A stretch of 21,339 nt of DNA from a virus. Below the pieces are notes generated by a model. That model saw nothing but the letters and a program-made list of their open reading frames with translations, was not told the origin of the DNA and did not search any database. The stretch lies in the IMG/VR virus record IMGVR_UViG_3300025120_000673, positions 1 through 21,339 of that record. One strand, given 5' to 3'. Positions 1,852 to 4,262 of the stretch are shown here, one piece after another. Within the stretch, counting starts at the first letter, position 1. Every line of letters begins with the position of its first letter. The translations under genes were made by a program, and so were the position numbers.

Positions 1852-2196
1852 ATGAGTCAAAAACAAGTAAAGAAATTATATCCTAAGTTATATGGTAAGA
1901 TACGACAAGATATGGTAAATCAAATTTATAATAAAGGTGCTGAGACTAAAGGTATTAAAGGTGCAGAAAATATACCTTCTAATTTATTAACAGGCATGTA
2001 TGATGAAATACATAAAAACATGAAAAAAACTGGAGACATTAAAAAGAAATATGGAGGTTCTATGAAAAAAATGAATACAGGTAGTAAAGTAGGTACAACC
2101 AAAAAGTCTTATGGTGGTCCTATTAAAAAAATGAGATCTGGTAGTAAGGTTGGTATGACTCAACAACAGATGATGGCTTGTGGGAGGAAAAAATAA
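1852..2196 (+). CDS. Small basic protein with two tandem GG-type 20-residue repeats
   Basis: 114 residues from ATG 1852. The N-terminal half (MSQKQVKKLYPKLYGKIRQ and on) looks helical and basic. The C-terminal half holds two copies of a 20-residue unit: YGGSMKKMNTGSKVG at 67-81 and YGGPIKKMRSGSKVG at 87-101, each a GG-[ST/P]-hydrophobic-KKM core. The end is CGRKK. The GG core looks like another version of the GGKLSS motif in the neighbouring proteins, here duplicated. It starts one base after the previous stop, and its own stop overlaps the next start as TAATG. I do not recognise a family; a virion-associated role is inferred from the neighbours and the motif. Confidence 0.75.
   Translation: MSQKQVKKLYPKLYGKIRQDMVNQIYNKGAETKGIKGAENIPSNLLTGMYDEIHKNMKKTGDIKKKYGGSMKKMNTGSKVGTTKKSYGGPIKKMRSGSKVGMTQQQMMACGRKK
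2050..2160 (+). repeat. 60-base tandem repeat within the gene 1852-2196
   Basis: Two in-frame copies begin at 2050 and 2110 (period 60 bases, 20 residues), both encoding YGG-x-x-KKM-x-x-GSKVG. The second copy has diverged at silent and replacement positions, so the duplication is not recent. Confidence 0.75.
2182..2187 (+). promoter_or_regulatory. Ribosome binding site that decides the start at 2196
   Basis: GGGAGG lies 8 bases before ATG 2196, inside the end of the upstream gene. It favours ATG 2196 over an in-frame TTG at 2178. Confidence 0.6.
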
Positions 2197-3335
2197 TGGG
2201 TATTGTTACTTTTTTAATGGGGTTACTTAGAAGTACTAAAACTCCTCTTACTGATAAAAATCTTATTAAAAAGTTTTTAAAAGATAATCCGGGAAATAAA
2301 CCTGATTTATCAAGCATGGATTTACCTGTGGGTCTTCAAAAAGTTATTACTAAAAATATAAATAAAGTTCCTAATAAACAAATAAAAGGAAAACCTAATA
2401 TAGATCAAATAGCTAAAGATTTTACAAACAAACAATCAGGAGCTAAAAATAGTTTATCTATTTTAAAAGATAAGAAAAAACCTAATGGTACATCTTTAGT
2501 TATATCTAAAAATAAAAATGTAGCTAATCCTAATAAAAAAATAGTGATTGATGGTAACCCTATAAATAAAATAAAAAAAGTAGGTGGTTCAGATGTTTCT
2601 GTTAAATCAGGAGCTAAAAGTCTTTTAAAGAAAAAAACTCCTACAATGACAAATAAAAATAATAAAACATTTATTAGTAATATAAAAAATATAGCACGTA
2701 AGGGATTAAATAATAAAAAGAAATTAGCAGCTATTGCTGCAGGTACTACTGTATTAAGTACATTACCATCTAAGACATTAGGTGATGCAACTCTTAAAAA
2801 AAATAAAAATACTATAATTAAAGACCCTAAAATTAAAAAACCTATTATACCTAAAGTAATAAAAAAAGAATTACCTAAACTTAAATCTAATGACTACACA
2901 GGTAGATTTATAGATAAGGAAGGTAGAGTTGCCTATGATAGTGCATCAGACTTTTTTGCACATATGTTTGGTACTCCTAAGAAAAGAGCAATGCCTAAAA
3001 AATCTGCAAGAATATTCGGTGGTACAGGTGACAAACTAAAAAGAAAAGATGCAGATACTAAAGGTGCTGGTAAAGGTGTAAAGTTTAAGGCATTTAAGTC
3101 AGGCACTAAGGATAAGACTATAGGTAAACCTAAATCTTTAAAAAGTGTAATGAATAAAAAAATCAGAGATGCAGAAAAAAAAGATTCTACATTTGGTTTG
3201 TTAAAGACTTCAATAGATTATCCTGAATTATTTGATAGAGTTACTACTAAAAGAACAGGTGGTAGTTTATCTTCTGATAAGTATGTGGCTAAACAAATTA
3301 GAGGTTGGGGTAAAGCTAGAAAACCTAAAGGATAA
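2196..3335 (+). CDS. Lysine-rich virion-associated protein with a short hydrophobic helix and C-terminal GGSLSS / RGWGKA
   Basis: 379 residues from ATG 2196, which overlaps the previous stop (TAATG). It is mostly Lys/Asn-rich low-complexity sequence. Residues 175-190 (KKLAAIAAGTTVLSTL) form the only hydrophobic stretch, probably too short and weak for a certain membrane helix. Residues around 235-260 contain an acidic/aromatic patch (YDSASDFFAHMFGTPKKR). The C-terminus has GGSLSS (355-360) and RGWGKA (369-374). The order basic region, lone hydrophobic stretch, GG[KS]LSS matches the truncated gene 1-510, so the two may be diverged paralogues. I cannot name the family. The block position before the tail adaptor suggests a head-internal or decoration protein. 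Confidence 0.78.
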   Translation: MGIVTFLMGLLRSTKTPLTDKNLIKKFLKDNPGNKPDLSSMDLPVGLQKVITKNINKVPNKQIKGKPNIDQIAKDFTNKQSGAKNSLSILKDKKKPNGTSLVISKNKNVANPNKKIVIDGNPINKIKKVGGSDVSVKSGAKSLLKKKTPTMTNKNNKTFISNIKNIARKGLNNKKKLAAIAAGTTVLSTLPSKTLGDATLKKNKNTIIKDPKIKKPIIPKVIKKELPKLKSNDYTGRFIDKEGRVAYDSASDFFAHMFGTPKKRAMPKKSARIFGGTGDKLKRKDADTKGAGKGVKFKAFKSGTKDKTIGKPKSLKSVMNKKIRDAEKKDSTFGLLKTSIDYPELFDRVTTKRTGGSLSSDKYVAKQIRGWGKARKPKG

Positions 3336-3337
3336 AA

Positions 3338-3442
3338 ATGACTAAAGAAAAAAAATGTGATACTTGTGAGTGCTACGAATGTGATTGTGAAGAATGTAAT
3401 TGTGATTGTCATGAAGAGGAGGTACAAGGAGTACCTATATAA
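3338..3442 (+). CDS. Cysteine-rich 34-residue metallothionein-like microprotein
   Basis: ATG 3338 follows AAAGGA (3327-3332) with 5 bases spacing and sits 2 bases after the previous stop. TAA at 3440-3442 abuts the next start at 3443. The 34-residue product has 8 cysteines at positions 7, 10, 12, 15, 17, 20, 22 and 24 plus His25, i.e. CxxCxCxxCxCxxCxCxCH. The residues between are mostly Asp/Glu, and a short acidic tail ends in VQGVPI. This density of CxC and CxxC pairs is typical of metal-thiolate binding peptides such as metallothioneins, but I see no specific family match. Tight packing, a good ribosome site and the ordered Cys spacing argue that it is a real gene. Metal binding is inference. 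Confidence 0.7.
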   Translation: MTKEKKCDTCECYECDCEECNCDCHEEEVQGVPI

Positions 3443-3625
3443 ATGATTGAGTTTGTTCTTGTGTTTATGATGGGATTAAGAGTAGTAGACCAGACACAAA
3501 CTTTTCAAGATATTAATAGATGTTTATATTTTTCAGAGAGATTACACAATCAACCTTCTATACCTCAAAAGGAAGGACCTAACCTACAGATAACTGCATA
3601 CTGCAAACCTATAAGGAAAAAGTAA
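3443..3625 (+). CDS. Small phage protein with hydrophobic N-terminus and two cysteines
   Basis: 60 residues. The start abuts the preceding stop (TAAATG), with GAGGAGG-type purines some 20 bases upstream and AAGGAG nearer (about 3425-3431). The stop overlaps the next start (TAATG at 3623-3627). The N-terminus (MIEFVLVFMMGLRVV) is hydrophobic but short for a membrane helix; a weak signal-like segment is possible. The rest is polar, with Cys27 in DINRCLYFSERL and Cys54 in ITAYCKPIRKK, which could pair or bind a ligand. I recall similar short proteins in ocean phage genomes but no function. Confidence 0.7.
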   Translation: MIEFVLVFMMGLRVVDQTQTFQDINRCLYFSERLHNQPSIPQKEGPNLQITAYCKPIRKK

Positions 3626-4158
3626 TGGACCCAGTAACTATATCACTTGCAGTTGGAGTAGCATCTAAAGCATTTAGTGCAATTAAACAAGGCTTTGCTG
3701 TAGGCAGAGACTTAGAGCAGATGTCAGGAGACATTAGCAGATGGATGGGAGCAGTTTCAGATGTTGATAATGCAGAGAAACAAGCAAAAAATCCGGGAGT
3801 GTTTGGCAAAGTCTTTGGTAGTGGAAGTATTGAAACTACTGCACTACAGGCTTATGCAGCCAAGAAGAAACTTGAGGAACAAAGATACGAACTCAAGATG
3901 TTTTTAAATATGACTCATGGACCACAAGCCTATGATGAACTTTTAGAAATGGAAGGTAAGATACGTAAACAAAGACAAGCTACTATTTATAAGCAACAGC
4001 AGATACGAAAGCAAATAGGTGAAGGTATAGGATGGTTATTTCTTGTACTTGTAATAGGTGGATTTTTATTATTATTAACAAGTATATTTGTAAGTAAGGC
4101 AGAAGCATTTGAAGACACCCAACCTAAAACTTTTATTTTCAGAGAAGAACTAGAATGA
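3625..4158 (+). CDS. Membrane-anchored coiled-coil phage protein
   Basis: 177 residues starting at MDPVTISLAVG. Residues 5-25 form an Ala/Val-rich amphipathic stretch. Residues 73-130 are highly charged and helical (AAKKKLEEQRYELK, EGKIRKQRQ), likely a coiled coil. Residues 135-156 (GWLFLVLVIGGFLLLLTSIF) are a clear transmembrane helix, followed by a roughly 20-residue polar tail. Proteins with the order MDP[VI]TI, GSIE, coiled coil and C-terminal membrane helix recur in marine phages without known function. A lysis role (holin or spanin-like) is possible because of the membrane helix, but an i-spanin would have the helix at the N-terminus, so I do not assign one. TGA 4156-4158 overlaps the next ATG. 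Confidence 0.8.
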   Translation: MDPVTISLAVGVASKAFSAIKQGFAVGRDLEQMSGDISRWMGAVSDVDNAEKQAKNPGVFGKVFGSGSIETTALQAYAAKKKLEEQRYELKMFLNMTHGPQAYDELLEMEGKIRKQRQATIYKQQQIRKQIGEGIGWLFLVLVIGGFLLLLTSIFVSKAEAFEDTQPKTFIFREELE

Positions 4159-4262
4159 CACCATGTAGAGGTATATGTAAATTAGTAAATGATGTGTGTG
4201 TAGGGTGTTATAGAACTATAGAACAAATAAAAGAAGCTTATAAAGTATTACCTAAAAATTAA
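4155..4262 (+). CDS. DUF1289-like four-cysteine microprotein
   Basis: 35 residues, start in an ATGA overlap with the preceding gene, TAA at 4260-4262. The sequence begins MTPCRGICKLVNDVCVGCYR and continues TIEQIKEAY. Cys4, Cys8, Cys15 and Cys18 follow CxxxC-x6-CxGC with RT after the last Cys, matching the core of DUF1289 proteins (pattern PC-x-x-C-x-[LI]... C-x-GC-x-RT-x-[DE]-E-I). Family members are small and thought to bind a metal or Fe-S cluster; function is unknown. This copy stops right after the core helix. It is the second tiny cysteine-rich gene within 1 kb. Confidence 0.75.
   Translation: MTPCRGICKLVNDVCVGCYRTIEQIKEAYKVLPKN

Follow-up and report, generated by a model that had tools for sequence, protein, structure and literature searches.

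A conserved Cys-rich peptide gene of uncultured phages located directly upstream of the tm60 gene

The short fungal metallothioneins of the Neurospora type (about 25 aa) are CxC-rich and comparable in size and number of Cys residues to the 34-aa phage peptide described here but, unlike it, they have Gly/Ser spacers and contain no His or Tyr. Acidic residues alternate with Cys in the peptide as they do in phytochelatins and synthetic (Glu-Cys)n. Phytochelatins are made by an enzyme, whereas the peptide is encoded by a normal gene and has fixed Thr, Tyr and His residues; in place of a gamma-linked, enzymatically made (Glu-Cys)n chain, a ribosomal ORF with a start, a Shine-Dalgarno (SD) site and a stop was found. 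Metallothioneins usually contain about 30% Cys, and those of invertebrates and plants can hold aromatic and His residues (PMC6981760); the aromatic content of the peptide is one invariant Tyr. The cyanobacterial SmtA, a 56-aa Zn4Cys9His2 protein (PMC10119931), resembles the peptide in being small and Cys-rich with a CxCxxCxC motif, and a His ligand is expected in the peptide. In contrast to SmtA, the peptide has 34 rather than 56 residues, acidic spacers and an invariant Thr and Tyr inside the array, and is tied to a partner gene; the profile similarity between the two does not go beyond composition, and metal binding of the peptide is only predicted.

Pfam Phage_zn_bind_4 (PF24128) is also a small phage family and is called zinc binding; a single one of 27 members of the peptide family matched it, insignificantly (E 3.3). 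DUF1289 (PF06945) is represented in the same gene cluster by a second tiny Cys protein (35 aa, E 3.5e-9, positions 4155-4262), 0.7 kb downstream of the peptide gene, and a DUF1289 member recurs close to the peptide in 80 of 134 loci. Its Cys layout differs, and the peptide has no match to DUF1289.

The window, that is the whole stretch of DNA analysed, is a 21.3-kb virus record (21,339 nucleotides) with 32% GC. Its near-twin, a 52.8-kb contig, has ORFs for terminase, portal, GroES-like, capsid and adaptor-like proteins, all named by position and similarity to annotated relatives rather than by profile except the terminase, which is 39% identical to that of Pelagibacter phage HTVC023P. The peptide gene is located among late and virion genes, as had been supposed from the window alone. 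The nearest cultured relatives are the sole ground for the putative label 'marine'. The features of the window referred to below are as follows.

2178-3335, + strand: upstream Lys-rich 385-aa ORF ending 2 bases before the peptide start; not a constant neighbour (11 of 134 loci)
3327-3332, + strand: SD site AAAGGA serving the Cys peptide, located in the terminal part of the upstream gene (from the sequence; 5-base SD match by script)
3338-3442, + strand: Cys-cluster peptide gene, 34 aa (ORF reading and conserved family)
3356-3412, + strand: conserved core CDTCECYECDCEECNCDCH with invariant C, T, C, C, Y, C, C, C, C and H (codon-level conservation, alignment)
3417-3431, + strand: tail codons (EEVQGV) holding the tm60 ribosome site(s) AGGAGG and AAGGAG (every tail class carries an SD site or overlaps the next start)
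3443-3625, + strand: tm60, 60-aa partner gene, predicted beta-beta-alpha-beta, two conserved Cys (linkage, AlphaFold2, alignment)
3625-4158, + strand: 177-aa protein with a C-terminal hydrophobic segment, a common downstream neighbour that also occurs without the pair

The product of the ORF at 3338-3442, read from the window sequence, is MTKEKKCDTCECYECDCEECNCDCHEEEVQGVPI, with Cys at residues 7, 10, 12, 15, 17, 20, 22 and 24, followed by His25. Its ATG at 3338 is separated by 2 bases from the TAA of the upstream ORF (3333-3335), and its stop codon (3440-3442) is directly followed by the tm60 ATG at 3443. The earlier note had described a short gene with a good ribosome site that fits exactly between its neighbours and encodes a regular array of eight Cys, and the coordinates, length, SD site, abutting stop and start codons and Cys positions all agree with that description. 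When the window was copied 60 times by a first-order Markov model, the richest run of 19 residues contained 4-6 Cys in 58 copies, 7 in two and 8 in none; eight Cys within 19 residues thus exceed chance. The ORF is confirmed as a real gene, for which conservation is stronger evidence than Cys density.

Homologues were collected by several routes. Of 80 viral contigs found via the neighbouring 177-aa protein (3625-4158), 33 carry the peptide, and no degraded form was seen in the others. A DNA pattern describing the Cys spacing, in which Thr and Tyr were left free, added at least about 100 further members from viral_contigs after a minority of matches, chance Cys-rich frames, had been removed. 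With all routes pooled, including loci found via tm60, the family comprises at least 207 records (a few contigs, fetched by several routes, are counted repeatedly), at least 107 distinct proteins and at least 58 distinct cores, with the peptide at the same place. The core reads CxTCxCY[DE]CDCxxCxCxCH with fixed spacing, and every core fits the looser CxTCxCYxC[DN]xxxCxCxCH. No insertion or deletion occurs in the 19-residue core among the at least 58 distinct cores, a result that counts mainly for the neighbour-selected loci, as the search pattern itself fixes the spacing. A conserved homologue at the same place in related phages, the requirement on which the first reading had staked itself, is thus present, syntenic and with no lost frame.

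The family is unannotated and comes from uncultured phage contigs; no cultured phage with the peptide was found. The search by tblastn of 50,697 phage records, in which low-complexity filtering may conceal some matches, gave none to the peptide, and the strict Cys pattern had none in 84,980 bacterial and archaeal genomes. As its members have about 34-40 residues and a biased composition, the family is invisible to current libraries; it is a selected, widespread family missed by gene-length cut-offs. A stretch of similar flavour was noted in a 105-aa hypothetical protein near the packaging genes of Roseobacter phage CRP-901 (gp70, locus L205), which contains the acidic Cys/His sequence EEDCDCEHGEDCDCHHDE with a spacing different from that of the peptide.

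For the codon comparison, loci were taken only if a neighbour gene had led to them, which avoids the bias of the Cys pattern and left 59 distinct DNA cores. In all 59, seven of the eight Cys as well as Thr3, Tyr7 and His19 (core numbering) are constant while their codons vary: Tyr is TAC in 30 and TAT in 29, His is CAC in 36 and CAT in 23, and TGT and TGC are mixed at every Cys. Asp10 is changed in one core of 59 and Cys11 is replaced in about one in ten. The pN/pS ratio is 0.15 for the whole core, 0.06 for Cys, 0.004 for Thr/Tyr/Asp/His, 0.40 for the other seven positions and 0.23 for the non-Cys codons as a set; these Nei-Gojobori ratios are too low in absolute terms owing to two-fold degenerate codons and inflated pS, which leave the plain residue counts unaffected. 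Constant residues with varying codons exclude chance, and the codon comparison points to strong purifying selection at the predicted ligand positions and at Thr, Tyr and His.

One test placed the gene tm60 directly 3' of the peptide gene in 133 of 134 loci, the sole exception being a 313-base contig end, and another did so in 208 records. The two genes are a few bases apart or overlap (-1 and -5), with an overlap of up to 62 bases in one subgroup. AlphaFold2 gave a confident beta-beta-alpha-beta model of tm60 (pLDDT 91), and on this predicted fold the initial idea of a membrane protein was rejected, tm60 being a working name that predates the fold; the alignment shows two invariant Cys. A search with the fold returned only uncharacterised tiny phage proteins, and the PDB gave nothing useful. 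In L283 and L284, contigs of Neomarinimicrobiota MAGs, a tm60-like protein (33% identity) lies beside an apparent T4-type head-completion gene, which places tm60 in a far broader family of tiny proteins in marine phages. In L123 and L218 the peptide-tm60 pair is kept together, and insertion of two genes (249 and 112 aa) separates tm60 from the 147-aa gene.

A divergent tm60 query retrieved 80 loci, of which 56 carry the peptide, one breaks off at a contig end and 23, whose tm60 is 61-71% identical to the query, lack it. As such close relatives exist, tm60 does not need the peptide and an obligate pair is ruled out; the linkage is one-way, the peptide occurring with tm60 and tm60 sometimes without the peptide. 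In loci L358-L365 the flanking genes match those of peptide-bearing phages and tm60 starts after the upstream stop codon with no peptide gene in between, which by comparison of these sequences is a clean empty site. A profile search of 12 peptide-less records, several of them fragments, found no peptide elsewhere in them. On a tree built on the downstream 177/146-aa gene, the peptide is present in both of two deeply separated clades and its presence changes 13 times, at least six of these forced by well-supported branches, the counts being approximate since two contig-end truncations (rows of the L240 and L216 type) were scored as lacking and very long branches join the clades. The constant adjacency to tm60 can also stem from a single insertion in an ancestor, together with short-range linkage. 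Given the partner gene and the sites at which the peptide is cleanly present or absent, its function lends itself to a direct test.

From these features we infer that the peptide binds metal, zinc being the likeliest, and acts on tm60, and we hold tentatively, as the first choice, that it is a metal-thiolate peptide which folds only with metal and assists tm60. The late gene would give a short acidic peptide without a fold of its own, probably organised around metal ions bound by the thiolates of its Cys and by the last His. Two four-coordinate (tetrahedral) zinc sites would be just filled by the invariant ligands, which are seven Cys and one His; all eight Cys, the eighth being usually present, together with the His could form a bridged cluster with as many as three ions. 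Modelled by itself in AlphaFold2, the peptide has no predicted fold (pLDDT 57, disordered), which is compatible with a metal-organised fold, although low confidence for 34 residues lends this weak support. Once built on metal, the peptide, including its invariant Thr, Tyr and His, might be a stoichiometric helper that binds tm60 or passes metal to it, either of which seems probable since their genes overlap or abut in translation. It is unlikely, though conceivable, that the peptide is an optional phage-specific metal-cluster module, added to or removed from tm60, so that during infection the activity of a phage protein would follow the zinc or copper inside the cell. If metal-binding, it would be a phage-encoded metallothionein-like peptide linking infection to metal handling in oligotrophic waters; no report of a phage or viral metallothionein was found in the open-access literature searched.

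A possible but more doubtful explanation is a lone metallothionein-like buffer that, inside the infected cell, stores or sequesters zinc, copper or cadmium, with tm60 as a mere neighbour. The layout agrees with it: Cys makes up 24% of the peptide, CxC occurs four times and CxCxxCxC twice, with overlap, as set beside SmtA and MT2A, and the peptide is strongly acidic, resembling (Glu-Cys)n chelators. The metallothionein-like arrangement noticed at the outset is thus borne out, but no family similarity accompanies it. Pfam, PHROG, NCBIfam and PDB gave no match to the peptide, in line with the original remark that no known phage family could be connected with it, and SmtA, human MT2A, Neurospora MT and MymT scored against the family profile no better than the best of their own shuffles, while the window peptide scored 82.7 bits (shuffled maximum 27.9). 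With no library match and shuffle-level scores, the peptide is metallothionein-like in layout and at most works like one, membership being unsupported. The buffer is also at odds with the invariant Thr and Tyr and the fixed spacing, which exceed what a buffer requires, with the fixed adjacency to tm60, and with the lack of a homologue in the bacterial and archaeal genomes and phage records searched. A specific partner fits the invariant Thr and Tyr, and the constant position ahead of tm60, better than a general buffer does. The earlier note was right on the short gene, its layout and its lack of a family, and the roles that it proposed (metal storage, sensing, redox, virion loading) are hypothetical. 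It had missed that the linkage to tm60 is fixed and one-way, that Thr, Tyr and His are invariant, that the gene is cleanly present or absent, and that the tail is largely SD-driven.

It is quite improbable that the Cys of the peptide act without metal, by exchanging disulfides or by donating thiols to the conserved Cys pair of tm60. Its many thiols and the two invariant Cys of tm60 would suit such a role, and lysozyme and holin-like genes are close by in many relatives, but dense CxC spacing and a fixed His suit metal better than a redox CxxC, and the lysis genes are elsewhere in the near-twin of the window, which also rules out a general linkage to lysis. The 177-aa protein has more than 570 relatives in viral contigs, distant ones adjoining terminase or lysis genes in roseophages.

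The Cys-dense ORF abuts tm60 and contains its SD site, as would a leader peptide that senses cysteine supply and controls translation of tm60, and in which the Cys codons alone matter. Such a leader is disfavoured and very improbable: Thr, Tyr and His are invariant in the 59 cores despite synonymous changes, the rarely changed Asp10 and the other non-Cys codons are constrained too, no Rfam element was found, and the ORF is missing from some tm60 relatives. The precursor of a modified Cys-rich (RiPP) peptide deserves hardly any credence, as the one weak match of a member to NCBIfam FibroRumin RiPP is insignificant (E 0.47), there is no cleavable leader, and no radical SAM or other maturase occurs among the neighbour proteins scanned, a subset of the ORFs.

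The C-terminal tail varies by subgroup. The tail EVQGVPV is encoded by GGAGGTACAAGGAG, upstream of the tm60 ATG, and the tail AEKGND by AAGGAAATGATTGA, with the tm60 start inside. As the tail encodes the SD site or the start of tm60, its conservation is largely that of a ribosome site; the junction alone may suggest that the pair is coupled. The subgroup tail EEQLELDF(V/I)N (L004, L164, L176, L253 and L273) is like the bacterial sliding-clamp binding motif, an assignment that was set aside as the tails vary by subgroup and track the tm60 start.
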